Shown: positions 3,025 to 14,740 of the stretch, piece by piece | Layout: each line of letters opens with the position of its first letter | Position numbering within the stretch: position 1 is the stretch's first letter | Program-made: the position numbers and the translations under genes | Notes under the pieces: model-generated | Databases searched by the model: none | Seen by the model: only the letters and a program-made list of their open reading frames with translations | Told to the model about the DNA's origin: nothing | DNA from: Campylobacteraceae bacterium | Lineage (GTDB): Bacteria > Campylobacterota > Campylobacteria > Campylobacterales > Sulfurovaceae | Assembly: GCA_027065045.1 (NCBI GenBank) | Contig: JAMOOX010000132.1 | Coordinates: 1-32,220 of the forward strand | Length of the DNA stretch: 32,220 nt | Reading direction: 5' to 3'

Positions 3025-4656
3025 CTACCTTCTATTTTCCAAAGCAAATTTAATAAATGCCAAAATTGATGGGTTTGGAGTTTGTAGTCTTGATGTAAAT
3101 TCAGGATGAAATTGAACTCCTAAAAACCATGGGTGGCTTTTAACCTCTACAGCCTCAATAAGTCCATTTGACTCTCCTGAAATTATCATTCCATTCTCCT
3201 CTAAAATATCTCTATATTTAGGATTTGCCTCATATCTATGTCTATGTCTTTCATAAATTGTAGAGTCATGATAAGCCTTTGCAAGATTAGAACCCTCTAA
3301 GGTATTACACTCATACTCTCCTAATCTCATAGTACCACCAAGTGGTGATTTAGTTGTTCTTACTTGCTTATCTCCACTAGCATCTATAAACTCATCAATT
3401 AGATATATTACAGGTTCATTTGTATCTTCATCAAACTCTACTGAATTAGCATCTTTAATTCCTACTACATTTCTAGCAAACTCAATCATAGCAAGTTGCA
3501 TTCCTAGACATATTCCTAAAAATGGTATTTTATTCTCTCTAGCATATTTAATTGCTTCTATTTTACCCTCTACTCCACGGTTACCAAATCCACCTGCTAC
3601 TAAAACAGCATCGCTATTATGTAGATATTTTTGGCTTCCCTCATCTTCTAATTTTTCACTATCTACCCAGTTAATTCTAATTTTACAATCTAAATTAGCA
3701 CCTGCGTGGATAATTGCTTCTGTAAGAGATTTATATGACTCTTTAAGGTCAAGATACTTTCCTACAAATGCTAAATTTATCTCATTTTTAGGATTTATAA
3801 TTTTATGAACTAAAGAGTCCCATTTATTCATATCAGGCTTTAATTCACCTAGATTTAACTGTTTGCTAATTGGTTCTAATATATCTTGATATAAAAAATT
3901 AATAGGAACTTTATATATACTCTCTGAATCCATAGCATCAATAACAGATTTTATATCTACATCACAGTTAAATGCTATTTTCTCTTTTACATCTTTTGGA
4001 ATAAAATGCTCACTTCTAACAACCAACATATGAGGAGTAAGCCCTATTCTTCGTAACTCTTGGACAGAGTGTTGAGTTGGCTTAGTTTTGAGTTCTCCTG
4101 CTGTTTTGATATATGGCAGTAGTGTAACATGGACATTCATTACACTATCTCTTCCAAATTCATGTTTCATTTGTCTAATAGTTTCTAAAAATGGTAACCC
4201 CTCTATATCTCCTGTTGTACCACCTAATTCTACAATTAAGACATTTTTATTTTCTCCTGCATAGACTATTCTCTCTTTTATCTCATTTACAATATGAGGT
4301 ACTACTTGAATAGTTTTACCTAAATATTTACCTTTTCTCTCATTCTCTATAACAGTTTTATATACTTGACCTGTTGTAAAGTTATTTTTTTGAGTAAGTG
4401 ATGTATCTAAAAATCTCTCATAATGCCCCAAATCCAAATCTGTTTCTGCTCCATCTTTAGTTACAAAAACTTCACCATGTTCTAATGGACTCATTGTACC
4501 TGGGTCAACATTTATATATGGGTCTAACTTTAAAACACCAACTCTAATTCCTGAGTGTTTTAAAAGAGTACCAATACTTGCAGCTGTTATACCTTTACCT
4601 AGAGAACTTAATACTCCACCTGTTACAAATATAAATTTTGTTCTATTTTTTTGCAT
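3025..4656 (-). CDS. pyrG: CTP synthase
   Basis: Converts UTP to CTP using ATP and glutamine. It has 543 residues, the normal full length. The N-terminal synthetase domain shows the nucleotide loop [18 protein letters not shown] (10-27), the ATP/Mg region [12 protein letters not shown] (145-156) and the UTP-binding [14 protein letters not shown] (190-203). The C-terminal class I glutamine amidotransferase domain has GICLGMQLA with nucleophile C383 and the late VQFHPEF His/Glu pair. It starts 9 bases after dnaN, with AAGG ahead of the ATG. Position directly behind dnaN is unusual; many Campylobacterota have gyrB there. Confidence 0.98.
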
Positions 4657-4665
4657 TTATTGACC

Positions 4666-5739
4666 TTAATTTGTTATTGGCATAATTATAGTTATAAAGT
4701 CTTTATCTTTTACTACAAATGGCAGTTTTTTGCTATTAATTCCTATAATAAATTCATTACTATCTATTTGTGATAAAAAATCTATTAAATATTTACTGTT
4801 AAAATTAAGTTCTATATCTTCCTCAATATTAAGATTTATCTCTAATTGTGTTCTTGCTTCTACATTGTTGCTATTTTGCATTAATGAAGAGAAATATACT
4901 GCATTTGTAGTAAAATTAATAGTAATATCTTGAGATATAATAGATATTTGTTTAATTGCCTCTAACATCTCTTTTTTAGGAAATTTTATATTATATTTTA
5001 TCTCTTTTGGAATAATTTTATTATAATCTGGGAATTTACCATTTAAAAGCTTTGTAAATATAAAATATTTATTATTTTGAATTATAAGTTCTTTTTGGTC
5101 ATAGAATATATCAATCTTTTCTAAAAATATTTTCTCTATCTCTACAATAGCCTTTTTAGGTATAATAATAGACAACTCTTTATCATTGTTATTATAGATT
5201 GAAGCTACTGCTAATCTTTTGGTATCTGTACCTACTATATTTGTAACACCCTCTTTTATATCTATCAAAGCACCATTTAGTTCATACTTTGGATTATTAT
5301 TATCAATAGATGGTGTAATCTTTTTTAAATTTCTAATTAAATTTAGAGAATCTAGTGTTATTTGTCCCTTATCTTCAATAGTTGGAAATTTTGGAAATTG
5401 AGATGATTCAAATGTAGGTAATTTAAATTTAGAACGATTTTGTTTAATTATTAAAATCTGTTCATCTAACTCCAAAATTATATCTTCATCTTTTAATATC
5501 CTAATAATATCTAATAATTTTTTACCATTTACTGTAAAACTTCCAAGTTCATATACCTCTATATCTTTTGTTATTATTTTTATACCAATTTCTAAATCTG
5601 TTGCTTTAATAATACATATATCTTTTTCTACATTAAAATATATATGAGATGTAATTTGAGTAGCATCTTTTTTATCTAAAAAAGGTTGTGTATTAATCAG
5701 TATAGACTCTATTATCTGTTTCTTTATTTCAATCTTCAT
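4666..5739 (-). CDS. dnaN: DNA polymerase III subunit beta (sliding clamp)
   Basis: The ring-shaped processivity clamp that tethers polymerase III to DNA. It has 357 residues, typical for the three repeated clamp folds. Recognisable parts include LNGALIDIKEG and VGTDTKRLAVAS in the middle domain, LLNGKFPDYNKIIP, and the C-terminal VKDKDFITIIMPITN with the hydrophobic-Met-Pro ending typical of DnaN. The sequence is diverged and very AT-rich. AGGAG on the minus strand just upstream supports ATG at 5739. It follows dnaA, separated by the 156-base oriC2 region, so its leader overlaps the likely unwinding element. Confidence 0.95.
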   Translation of the reverse strand: MKIEIKKQIIESILINTQPFLDKKDATQITSHIYFNVEKDICIIKATDLEIGIKIITKDIEVYELGSFTVNGKKLLDIIRILKDEDIILELDEQILIIKQNRSKFKLPTFESSQFPKFPTIEDKGQITLDSLNLIRNLKKITPSIDNNNPKYELNGALIDIKEGVTNIVGTDTKRLAVASIYNNNDKELSIIIPKKAIVEIEKIFLEKIDIFYDQKELIIQNNKYFIFTKLLNGKFPDYNKIIPKEIKYNIKFPKKEMLEAIKQISIISQDITINFTTNAVYFSSLMQNSNNVEARTQLEINLNIEEDIELNFNSKYLIDFLSQIDSNEFIIGINSKKLPFVVKDKDFITIIMPITN

Positions 5740-5763
5740 TTTAACTCCTAATATTAGATATAT

Positions 5764-5781
5764 AAGTAGTAGTAGTAGTAG
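5764..5781 (+). promoter_or_regulatory. DnaA-trio motif
   Basis: AAG followed by five TAG triplets on the plus strand. Five bases later comes a reverse-oriented DnaA box (5787-5795). The polarity matches the Bacillus subtilis basal unwinding system as I recall it, where 3'-GAT-5' triplets next to a DnaA box guide a DnaA filament onto single-stranded DNA. AT-rich sequence lies on the far side (5740-5763). Function is inferred from arrangement. Confidence 0.75.
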
Positions 5782-5856
5782 AGTGAGGTGAATATGTTAA
5801 AACATTCAACTCACTACCATTTTACGACTACTTTTAACATCTCTTAATGAATTTAC

Positions 5857-5875
5857 TTATTCACATCTATTCACA
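5857..5875 (+). promoter_or_regulatory. Two tandem DnaA boxes
   Basis: TTATTCACA and CTATTCACA in the same orientation, separated by a single base. The first fits the classical TTATNCACA consensus exactly. Both contain the TTCAC core proposed for Campylobacterota. They lie 21-39 bases from the dnaA stop codon. Confidence 0.85.
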
Positions 5876-5895
5876 TTTCAAATTATATCTTTTTT

Positions 5896-7230: not shown

Positions 7231-7363
7231 ATCTCAACTCCCACAGTGAATAACTTCGTGAATTTTATCTAAATTTAGATAAAATTTGAGTTATAAAATA
7301 TAGATGTGAATAGTTTTGTAGTTCTATGTTACTAAAGTTATTAACATGTTAATAAAGGTGTGA
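7231..7363. other. Replication origin, upstream DnaA-box cluster (oriC1) between dnaA and ruvC
   Basis: Contains four TTCAC-core boxes on the minus strand: TTATTCACT (7245-7253), AAATTCACG (7257-7265), CTATTCACA (7305-7313) and TCATTCACA (7359-7367, running into the ruvC start). A fifth, TTATTCACT, lies inside ruvC on the plus strand (7435-7443). Two perfect palindromes, 7261-7286 and 7338-7355, lie between boxes. TGTTACT at 7327-7333 fits the TGTT(A/T)C(A/T) sites described for the HP1021-type response regulator; that assignment is tentative. The region also has to hold the divergent promoters of dnaA and ruvC. Confidence 0.85.
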
Positions 7364-7840
7364 ATGAATATCCTAGGAATAGACCCTGGAAGCCGTAATT
7401 TGGGCTATGCTATAATAAATTACAATAACAGAAGTTATTCACTTATTGAAGCAGGGGTTGTTAAAATCAAGACAACCAACTTACAAGAACAGATAGTAGA
7501 ACTAATAGAAGGACTTGATATAATAATCAAAAGAAATACAATAGATGAAGTAGCAATTGAGGGTATATTTTTTGCATATAATCCACAAAGTGTACTTAAA
7601 CTTGCTCAAATTAGAGGAGCATTATCTCTCAAAATTTTACAAGATATTGGATACTTTTATGAATATACTCCTCTTCAAGTCAAAAAGGCTCTTACAGGAA
7701 ATGGAAAAGCCTCAAAAGAACAAGTAGCCTTTATGGTTAAAAGAGTTCTAGGAATTAAAAAAGAGATAAAACCACTAGATATTACAGATGCTATGGCAAT
7801 AGCAATCACACACTCTCAAAGAGTAAAAATAGGAAAATAG
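7364..7840 (+). CDS. ruvC: Holliday junction resolvase RuvC
   Basis: The endonuclease that cuts Holliday junctions together with RuvAB. It has 158 residues, normal for the family. The four acidic catalytic residues are present at the usual places: D7 in GIDPGS, E66 in VAIEGIFF, and D139 and D142 in [14 protein letters not shown]. The conserved [15 protein letters not shown] lies at 107-121. The start ATG sits inside a DnaA box, so DnaA binding may touch its expression. It is divergent from dnaA and is followed with no gap by the cytidylyltransferase gene (TAG then ATG). Confidence 0.97.
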
Positions 7841-8399: not shown

Positions 8400-9050
8400 T
8401 TATAAATCTCTAGCCTTCTTAATAAAAAGCTTAAATGCCCTATTCCCTTTATAATCAATCTCATAGTTAATAAAAGATAAATACTCTATTAACTCTCTAG
8501 GTTTAATGCCTCTTTTTAACGCCTCTTTTTTGAGAATATATTGAGGTATCCTTACATTACTATATATAAACTTTTTTGCAATGCTTTCTATCTCTTGTTG
8601 ATGTGAGTTATAACAAAGCCTTGCAAATACAAAAGGCAATTTATATCTCTTATACCACTCACTAGCCAAATCTATCACATCACCACCATCAAGATAATAT
8701 CTCAATGCCCTATCCCCTATAATTACCTCACCATCAAGATTAAGTATTTTTGCCAACTTATTAGATGATGCAGAGGCACTATCATCTCTATTTCTACTAT
8801 TTGGTATCACAAATACACTCCGTACCTCTTTGTGAGCTACTATACCAATACTACTACATTTACATCTACGAGATTCTATACTAGATATAAAAGCACCATC
8901 AATAGTTCGTCTTTTAAATCTCTTATTAATAATTGAGGGGACATCTCTTTTGTATCTAAGACCTTGATAAATATTTGAATTTTTCATATATTTTTTAAGA
9001 AATATATGAAAAGGCAACAGATTTAGATACTCTATACTTCCAAAAGTCAT
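8400..9050 (-). CDS. mqnA: Chorismate dehydratase MqnA (futalosine menaquinone pathway)
   Basis: Turns chorismate into 3-enolpyruvylbenzoate, the entry to menaquinone through futalosine. It has 216 residues, on the short side as in Campylobacter. It starts MTFGSIEYLNLLPFHIFLKK, and has DGAFISSIESRR (51-62), LDGEVIIGDRALRYYLDGGD (104-123) and WYKRYKLPFVFARL (132-145). These match the Campylobacterota MqnA form of the periplasmic-binding-protein-like fold. It is monocistronic here; the gene on its left is separated by repeats. Menaquinone made this way would serve the cbb3-linked respiratory chain, although c-type electron carriers intervene. Confidence 0.88.
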   Translation of the reverse strand: MTFGSIEYLNLLPFHIFLKKYMKNSNIYQGLRYKRDVPSIINKRFKRRTIDGAFISSIESRRCKCSSIGIVAHKEVRSVFVIPNSRNRDDSASASSNKLAKILNLDGEVIIGDRALRYYLDGGDVIDLASEWYKRYKLPFVFARLCYNSHQQEIESIAKKFIYSNVRIPQYILKKEALKRGIKPRELIEYLSFINYEIDYKGNRAFKLFIKKARDL

Positions 9051-9142
9051 TTAATATATTCTCTTTTTAAGCTATTATATCACGATTTATCATGGAATTA
9101 TTAACAAATCATTAACTTTTTGTTAATTTTTATTAAAAATCC

Positions 9143-9172
9143 TTGACTTTTTAAAGAATCCTATGTTATAAT
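9143..9172 (+). promoter_or_regulatory. Porin promoter
   Basis: TTGACT (9143-9148), an 18-base spacer and TATAAT (9167-9172), about 40 bases ahead of the porin start. A clear GAGGAGA ribosome site follows at ~9201. This is a near-consensus vegetative promoter, stronger than others in the window, and agrees with the porin's biased codons. Confidence 0.8.
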
Positions 9173-9211
9173 TCCTAAAATCATAAACAAAAAATATTCT
9201 GAGGAGAAATT

Positions 9212-10579
9212 ATGAAAAAACTATTATTATTATCAATCGCAGCATCAGCTGTACTATTTGCTGGTGGAGACATCAAAGAAGTTGTTATACCAGAAGAGGT
9301 AGAAGTTAAACCTTGTCCAACATCAAATCTTAAGTGGTATGGTCAAACTGTACTTTATTATCAAACAGTAGAAAATGGTGCAGCTGTAACTGACAATGAA
9401 TTATTTGATGGTGATGTTTCAAAAGCAAATGCTGGTATTAAATTAGGTGTTACAGGTAGTAACCTTATGGATACAGGTATTGGATTTGGTGTAGAAATTG
9501 TTGCACTTGGTTCTTTAGGTTTAGAAAAAGATGGTGATGCTATCGCTGTTCCTGCTCCTGTTGGTTTTGTTGATGGTGGTGCTGATGGAATAGTAAATGA
9601 TTTCGTATCTGGTACAATGCAAGGAGCAGGTGCTGGAATTAATGGTGGTGAATTAACACAAGCTTACCTTACATATACAGCCGGTAATACAACAGCTAAA
9701 GTTGGTAGAATGTATCTTCCAAAAAATCTTTCTCCATTTGCTTTCTCTGAAAAATGGAATGTATTCTCTAACTCATTTGAAGCAGCACTTCTTATAAACT
9801 CTGATTTACCAGATACTACTTTAGTTGGTGCTTGGATTGCTAGAGGAAATGCTATTGGTAACCTAGGAGCATGGGCTGATATTGGTGCTAATAATAATGG
9901 TGCTTTAATGTTAACTGCTGTTAATAAATCAGTTGCTGGTCTTACTCTTACAGGTTCTTTCTACTTCTTATCAGAAGCTGGATTATTAGCTGAAGATACT
10001 ATCGCTTTATGGGGTGATGCTAAATTTAGTACAAAAGTAGCTGGTAATACAATTAATGTTGGTGTTCAAGGTGGTACATTAGATGTTGATTCTACAGATG
10101 CTACAATCGCTTATGGTGTAAAAGCTGGTGGTAACTTTGCTATCCCTGCATTTGGTAGTGTAGCATTAAGTGCAGCATATACAGGTGTTGATTTACAAAA
10201 TGGTGCTGGTAACTTAGCTGTTAGAAATATTTCTACAGGTGTAAAAACTCCACTATATACACAAATGGTTGCTAACCAAAACTTTATTTCAGGTGCTAAC
10301 TCTGTTTTAGGTACTGCTGATACAATCGTAGTAAAAGGTTCAGCTACTTATGATTTACCAGCAATTGGTAATACAACTCTTACTGTTGCTTATGGTATGA
10401 CAGAAATGGAAACAGGTGCAGGTGTTACATTGAATGATTATAATGAATTAGATGTAATTGCTACAGCTAAAATTGGTAATGCACAAGTACTTGCTGCTTA
10501 TGTTGCTACTGAAGTTGATGATGGTGTTGATGCTACAGATAATGACATCGTTCGTGTATGGGCTAAATGGAACTTCTAG
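9212..10579 (+). CDS. Major outer-membrane porin
   Basis: A 455-residue exported beta-barrel protein. Residues 1-18 are a signal peptide (MKKLLLLSIAASAVLFAG), likely cut after Ala-17 or nearby. The body alternates Gly, aromatic and hydrophobic strands, with many GNTTAKVGR-, GLTLTGSFYF- and IGNTTLTVAYG-like hairpins. The last residues RVWAKWNF end in Phe, the usual outer-membrane signature. It resembles the porins of Sulfurovum/Sulfurimonas and more loosely Campylobacter MOMP or the OprD-like group; I cannot place it more precisely. Base composition is visibly less AT-rich than the neighbours, with GGT/GCT/GTT codons, typical of very high expression rather than transfer. It has its own promoter and hairpin terminator. 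Confidence 0.85.
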   Translation: MKKLLLLSIAASAVLFAGGDIKEVVIPEEVEVKPCPTSNLKWYGQTVLYYQTVENGAAVTDNELFDGDVSKANAGIKLGVTGSNLMDTGIGFGVEIVALGSLGLEKDGDAIAVPAPVGFVDGGADGIVNDFVSGTMQGAGAGINGGELTQAYLTYTAGNTTAKVGRMYLPKNLSPFAFSEKWNVFSNSFEAALLINSDLPDTTLVGAWIARGNAIGNLGAWADIGANNNGALMLTAVNKSVAGLTLTGSFYFLSEAGLLAEDTIALWGDAKFSTKVAGNTINVGVQGGTLDVDSTDATIAYGVKAGGNFAIPAFGSVALSAAYTGVDLQNGAGNLAVRNISTGVKTPLYTQMVANQNFISGANSVLGTADTIVVKGSATYDLPAIGNTTLTVAYGMTEMETGAGVTLNDYNELDVIATAKIGNAQVLAAYVATEVDDGVDATDNDIVRVWAKWNF

Positions 10580-13975: not shown

Positions 13976-14740
13976 ATGGATATTTTTCAAGCAATAATTA
14001 TAGGAATAATAGAGGGATTTACAGAGTTTTTACCTATATCTTCAACAGGACACATGATAGTAGCATCTCATTTTATGGGAATTGAACAAAATAGTATAAA
14101 CAAAGCTTACGAAGTAATTATACAATTTTCAGCAATCTTAGCAGTGATATTAGTATATAAAGATAAACTAAGCCCCCAAAATATAGAGCTATGGCAAAAA
14201 TTATTAATAGCATTCTTACCATTAGCAATTATAGGATTTATATTCAAAGATAATATCAAAGAGCTTTTTAGTATGAATATCGTAGCAATTATGTTTATAA
14301 TAGGTGGAATAATCTTTTTAATAGTAGAAAAGTTTTATGATGAGCAAAAAACTCACACCACAACTATAGATAACATTACATTCAAACAAGCCTTTTTTAT
14401 AGGATTAGCACAAATATTCTCACTAATTCCTGGCACAAGTAGAGCAGGGGCTACAATTATAGGGGGATTATTATTAAAATTAGATAGAAAGACCTCCACA
14501 GAGTTTTCATTTTTATTAGTAATTCCTGTAATGGGTGCAGTAAGTGGATATGATTTACTTAAACACTATGATGAGTTTGCTAATTTAGATTATACCCCAT
14601 TTATTATAGGATTTATAGTATCTTTTATAGTAGCCTATATTACAATCAAATCACTTTTAATATTTTTAGAGAGATTTACATTTGTATCATTTGGAATATA
14701 TAGAATATTATTTGGAATATTTTTATTAATTTATATGTAA
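13976..14740 (+). CDS. uppP: Undecaprenyl-diphosphate phosphatase
   Basis: Recycles undecaprenyl diphosphate to the lipid carrier for cell-wall and surface-glycan synthesis; it also confers bacitracin resistance in many bacteria. It has 254 residues with seven or eight membrane segments. Motif 1, EGFTEFLPISSTGH (13-26), includes the catalytic Glu; motif 2, PGTSRAGATIIGG (152-164), includes R156. Both are intact. The gene is alone in its unit and is followed by a repeat element and a strong terminator. Confidence 0.95.
   Translation: MDIFQAIIIGIIEGFTEFLPISSTGHMIVASHFMGIEQNSINKAYEVIIQFSAILAVILVYKDKLSPQNIELWQKLLIAFLPLAIIGFIFKDNIKELFSMNIVAIMFIIGGIIFLIVEKFYDEQKTHTTTIDNITFKQAFFIGLAQIFSLIPGTSRAGATIIGGLLLKLDRKTSTEFSFLLVIPVMGAVSGYDLLKHYDEFANLDYTPFIIGFIVSFIVAYITIKSLLIFLERFTFVSFGIYRILFGIFLLIYM

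Follow-up and report, generated by a model that had tools for sequence, protein, structure and literature searches.

The window, i.e. the whole analysed stretch of 32,220 nucleotides, contains the genes ruvC, dnaA and dnaN in the order ruvC-dnaA-dnaN, as is found for oriC2 of Campylobacterota, and the gene after dnaN is pyrG (CTP synthase, 3025-4656). The gap between dnaA and dnaN (5740-5895) harbours a run of triplets next to a DnaA box, together with further boxes and potential regulatory elements (Table 1). The original prediction had read this site as AAG plus five TAG triplets at a distance of five bases from a reverse-oriented box, which is correct to the base. The layout that it had compared to Bacillus subtilis is also the one that we see, namely a box, a short spacer, 3'-GAT-5' triplets leading away from the box and finally AT-rich DNA.

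Table 1. Positions of genes and sequence features at the dnaA-dnaN locus of the window
Feature	Position	Strand	Remarks
dnaN	4666-5739	-	Pfam DNA_pol3_beta domains 1-3
AT-rich part of unwinding element	5740-5763		reaches dnaN start; outer side of trio
Inverted repeat/hairpin	5756-5842	-	33 pairs (RNA fold); triplets paired with upstream partner
AAG, imperfect sixth trio	5764-5766	+	CTT on - strand; read from sequence
DnaA-trios, five perfect TAG triplets	5767-5781	+	TAGTAGTAGTAGTAG; 3'-GAT-5' away from box; read from sequence
Spacer AGTGA, box to trio	5782-5786		five bases; length fixed, sequence free among relatives
DUE-proximal DnaA box	5787-5795	-	ATATTCACC; + strand GGTGAATAT; TTCAC core intact
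Outer tandem box	5795-5803	-	GTTTTAACA; 1-bp overlap with proximal box; core TTAAC instead of TTCAC
DnaA box	5857-5865	+	TTATTCACA; orientation opposite to DUE-proximal pair
DnaA box	5867-5875	+	CTATTCACA
TATAAT, probable -10 of dnaN promoter	5882-5887	-	just past dnaA stop; invariant in 31 aligned family members
dnaA	5896-7230	-	Pfam Bac_DnaA, Bac_DnaA_C, DnaA_N
oriC1-like cluster, dnaA to ruvC	7231-7367		boxes 7245-7253, 7305-7313, 7359-7367 (-); weaker matches 7338-7346, 7347-7355
ruvC	7364-7840	+	Pfam RuvC

A trio element is defined by at least three trios with a central A on the bound strand, at best in the form 3'-GAT-5', and the locus offers five perfect TAG triplets and AAG. The accompanying box is expected to have at most two mismatches, to lie within 16 bp of the trio and to point towards it. 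ATATTCACC does so at a distance of 5 bp, with two mismatches to the epsilon form TTATTCACA and a whole TTCAC core, this being the consensus of the box core (PMC5043019). For the second co-oriented tandem box, which is common, but not universal, in trio systems, GTTTTAACA at 5795-5803 is a candidate, with a mismatch in its core. At this core position 30 of 31 members of the family alignment possess a C and the window alone has an A, which might be a sequencing error, the genome being a draft. On the other side of dnaA, the oriC1-like cluster comprises five matches with one mismatch or less inside 123 bp, so that box clusters lie on both sides of dnaA in the manner of a bipartite oriC (7231-7367 on one side, 5857-5875 and the tandem pair on the other). 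Across the whole window there is no excess of DnaA boxes (18 found, 22 expected); the two clusters alone stand out.

The run TAGx5 occurs once in the genome from which the window derives (2,060,903 bases on 164 contigs) and not at all in the reversed control, and by dinucleotide shuffling even TAGx4 is expected only 0.01 times in the window. Three triplets by themselves are meaningless, since the loose pattern of TTCA, 3-16 nt and (CTA)3 matches nine times in this genome and 14 times in its reversed control. We dropped this unspecific pattern as evidence; the significance of the site therefore depends on run length, position and conservation.

To address conservation, we looked for dnaN in 60 relatives as well as in named genomes, and the region upstream of it was taken for 72 Campylobacterota loci. 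The named matches are uncultured Campylobacterota, including Sulfurovum, Campylobacteraceae, Nitratiruptor and Nautiliaceae records. A strict rule demanded the end of a box, a distance of 6-8 nt and three triplets with at least two CTA among them. The module of box, spacer and trio in this form is present upstream of dnaN in 48 of the 72 loci, compared to a mean of 0.13 and a maximum of 2 in dinucleotide shuffles; the other 24 loci miss the rule, several of them being visibly near-variants. The first triplet is 7 nt away from TTCA in 43 of these 48 loci, while its distance to dnaN varies between 39 and 182 nt. Because the spacing between box and trio is fixed and the distance to dnaN is variable, the trio is linked to the box rather than to dnaN. 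In the family alignment of 31 sequences, the two trio halves reach 1.33 and 1.26 bits per site, the outer tandem box 1.78, the proximal box 1.02 and the box pair at 5857-5875 1.30, while the spacer (0.34) and the middle (0.31) drift. The triplets are thus kept between drifting flanks at the same gene order, which is the outcome that the original prediction had named as a check on its reading. In some loci (L007, L009, L010, L014, L016, L017, L018, L019, L022, L030, L079, L081) the register upstream of dnaN skips, with three triplets, one extra base and about two more triplets replacing five in register.

We also searched 31 genomes of a sister genus, here called g9, for a tighter pattern, TTATTCAC-N(2-8)-TTCA-N(6-9)-(CTA)3. 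It is found once in each of 14 genomes (control: 0), and in 13 of these 14 it sits between dnaA and dnaN, in some of them in a gap that has widened to about 0.4-1.15 kb and carries 10 to 27 TTATTCAC-like sites. The usual form of the trio in this genus is at least five CTA followed by CTT, and 8 of the 48 loci under the strict rule also have perfect (CTA)5 runs. Contrary to what had been supposed, the repeat run in the window is consequently not unusually regular. A trio-like match on contig C99 of genome G046 was discarded, since it resembles protein-coding sequence (cytochrome b-like by eye). In another genome, G056, boxes and a trio lie upstream of dnaN with no adjoining dnaA (L127, G056:C52, 3490-3760); this assembly has dnaA-like genes on two other contigs and a contamination of 8%.

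The most informative relative is the g9 genome G012. Its dnaA-dnaN gap is down to 11-17 bp and lacks the trio, and boxes together with (CTA)5CTT are found on another contig (C40; L158, about 8950-9998) without dnaA, dnaN or ruvC nearby. There they occupy an intergenic region of 1 kb that is rich in TTATTCACA and contains a dozen TTATTCAC-like boxes. The adjoining genes resemble surface-polysaccharide genes. This region is probably a relocated origin, and its module may be the one from which the G012 chromosome is replicated. Since boxes and trio left both genes as a unit, the module would belong to the origin and not to the dnaN leader; this joint movement is the strongest argument from sequence comparison for the module as a part of the origin.

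Other relatives differ in the opposite direction or appear to have parted with the initiator gene. Enlarged dnaA-dnaN gaps of about 0.4-1.15 kb with 10-27 TTATTCAC-like sites are present in L204 (G072), L211 (G060), L199 (G074) and L003 (G001); in the last one the gap measures 506 bp and carries evenly spaced repeats of ACGTGAATAACT. In the g9 genome G021, which is 99% complete, neither a protein search nor a profile of the DnaA C-terminus detected dnaA. When the interval from dnaN to the gene preceding dnaA in G012 (87% identical between the two) is compared, a remnant of 22 residues alone aligns before dnaN (L126, G021:C11, 14484-14632; also L078). This remnant (14525-14590) is 73% identical to the DnaA of G012, and paired TTATTCAC boxes were not found in the G021 genome. 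G021 appears to have lost dnaA. A missing contig would be no explanation, since the deletion would lie inside a contig; a divergent second copy might reside in unassembled sequence. In total, 6 of the 31 g9 genomes are without a dnaA match, those besides G021 being less complete.

The GC skew, which had also been proposed as a check, gives a divided answer. In the window itself the skew changes its sign near 7.0-7.5 kb, but the cumulative curve reaches its minimum at 8.5-9.5 kb, and a gene-strand effect is all that four-fold sites reveal. We therefore rejected the window skew as an origin locator, since it tracks gene orientation, and its minimum is uninformative. In the complete relative G026, 20 sampled stretches have a positive skew from 0 to 1.12 Mb and a negative one from 1.21 to 2.22 Mb, so the switch coincides with the dnaA end. 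In G007, where dnaA lies inside a contig, the skew rises from -0.03 to +0.10 between the sampled 17.5-kb stretches that flank the locus, with uneven arms. In these two relatives the expected sign change is thus found at dnaA and across the locus, respectively.

The location of the module upstream of dnaN raises the question of a role in dnaN expression. Since a promoter scan gave no excess over shuffles, it is conservation that points to TATAAT as the -10 of dnaN. This element would plausibly put the trios and the unwinding element into the dnaN leader, so that unwinding and dnaN transcription could overlap, as had been suspected. It would also place the dnaN start near the boxes at 5857-5875, and therefore the dnaN promoter may be repressed by DnaA.

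For the leader strand (5872-5740) a fold of -32.1 kcal/mol was computed, and 0 of 200 shuffles were as stable. An Rfam search gave no match. It is possible, though unlikely, that the site is an opening site whose triplets have also joined a hairpin, which tunes dnaN expression or opening in this species. The 33-pair hairpin fits this idea, as do short GTAGTAG partners in the congeners L004-L006, but the fold stability of the congeners is ordinary (z about -0.8) and the hairpin is not generally conserved. A more specific proposal, to which we give just as little credence, is that the module has been rewired in this species: with a broken outer box and an inner box whose core is perfect, the hierarchy of the tandem boxes would be swapped, and the long inverted partner (5756-5842) would couple opening and dnaN expression via a hairpin that is unused by the relatives.

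Very improbable is the explanation that the site is a leader element alone, i.e. that a hairpin in the transcript controls dnaN expression and the likeness to a trio is incidental. The fold of the leader strand, in which the triplets are paired, is indeed unusually stable (z -3.83), and the invariant upstream -10 would make the region transcribed. However, the triplets are conserved and the hairpin is not, for which reason we rejected the hairpin as the main function; moreover, the variable distance to dnaN contrasts with the fixed spacing to the box, and in G012 the trio is missing upstream of dnaN and found elsewhere with boxes. A chance or slippage-made triplet repeat without function, which would agree with the short TTCA...(CTA)3 being no commoner than its reversed control, has a negligible probability and is refuted by the conservation of position, spacing and sequence across the phylum next to a drifting spacer.

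The window derives from a member of the Campylobacterota near Sulfurovum, and in the origin of its chromosome (oriC2) the module is almost certainly the basal unwinding module, at which DnaA would open the DNA. That the site is the probable opening site, as originally predicted, is supported by layout, conservation, fixed spacing, the skew of relatives and the joint movement in G012. By analogy to published homologues, DnaA would bind the tandem boxes (5787-5803) as double-stranded DNA, cross the five-base spacer and polymerise along the TAG triplets of the + strand with one protomer per triplet. The filament over 5764-5781 would stretch and open roughly 5740-5781, where the helicase would be loaded. 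The outer boxes (5857-5875) and the oriC1 cluster (7231-7367) probably aid assembly, perhaps by looping out dnaA. Binding, filament polarity and growth, opening and looping are thus taken over from known systems; for binding, filament growth and opening this is because the mechanism is published and the pocket residues are kept. In B. subtilis adjacent DnaA molecules form a pocket that holds two bases of each triplet (PMC10721633), and in the alignment the DnaA of the window keeps the corresponding residues (N179 for Asn187, R194 for Arg202, E220 for Glu228). Ile190 of B. subtilis contributes to the separation of the third trio base. The window has Thr182 at this position, and Thr is also the residue found in 45 of the 67 Campylobacterota DnaAs that were aligned.

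For an uncultured Sulfurovum-like lineage, the probable site of opening is thereby placed to within a few bases, and we found no detailed description of a Sulfurovum origin in the literature searched. The added value lies in the relatives, since growth of the box array, relocation and apparent loss of dnaA occur inside one genus. Depending on the g9 genome, the locus is compact, enlarged to as many as 27 box-like sites, relocated or apparently dnaA-less, and G012 represents a natural experiment, since its boxes and trio have moved jointly away from dnaA and dnaN. This genus might serve as a system to study the parting of origin and initiator.

DnaA-trios have already been published for origins of Arcobacter, Sulfurimonas, Wolinella, Campylobacter and Helicobacter, and in this respect the site in the window is ordinary. 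In H. pylori, dnaN is presumably not adjoining dnaA. Its oriC2 shares with the window tandem boxes with a weak outer (ts1) and a strong inner (ts2) one, a short spacer, five perfect trios and an AT-rich end, and opening is lost there when the trio is changed (PMC8235120). The spacer AGTGA of the window is, in contrast to that of H. pylori, not GC-rich.

In Arcobacter butzleri, Sulfurimonas denitrificans and Wolinella succinogenes, all of which have a trio, DnaA opens the dnaA-dnaN gap in vitro (PMC5043019). These three origins and the window have in common the order ruvC-dnaA-dnaN, boxes flanking dnaA, an opening site in the dnaA-dnaN gap, the TTCAC core and a trio beside the DUE-facing box; the opening was measured there, whereas that in the window is predicted from sequence. 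While gyrB after dnaN is described as usual for the class (PMC5043019), dnaN is followed by pyrG in the window. Campylobacter jejuni possesses twin boxes with a 1-bp overlap about 5 bp before the unwinding element in the same gap, but its trio is degenerate (PMC6052347) and that of the window is perfect. Boxes 6/7 and trios of B. subtilis likewise consist of tandem co-oriented boxes and of 3'-GAT-5' trios leading away from them, downstream of dnaA (PMC6669920, PMC10721633). However, the critical consensus box of B. subtilis is the outer one (#6), whereas the outer box of the window is degenerate, and the window DnaA has Thr in place of Ile190. Judged from the sequence, the order of a weak outer and a strong inner box seems to resemble ts1/ts2 of H. 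pylori more closely than boxes 6/7 of B. subtilis.
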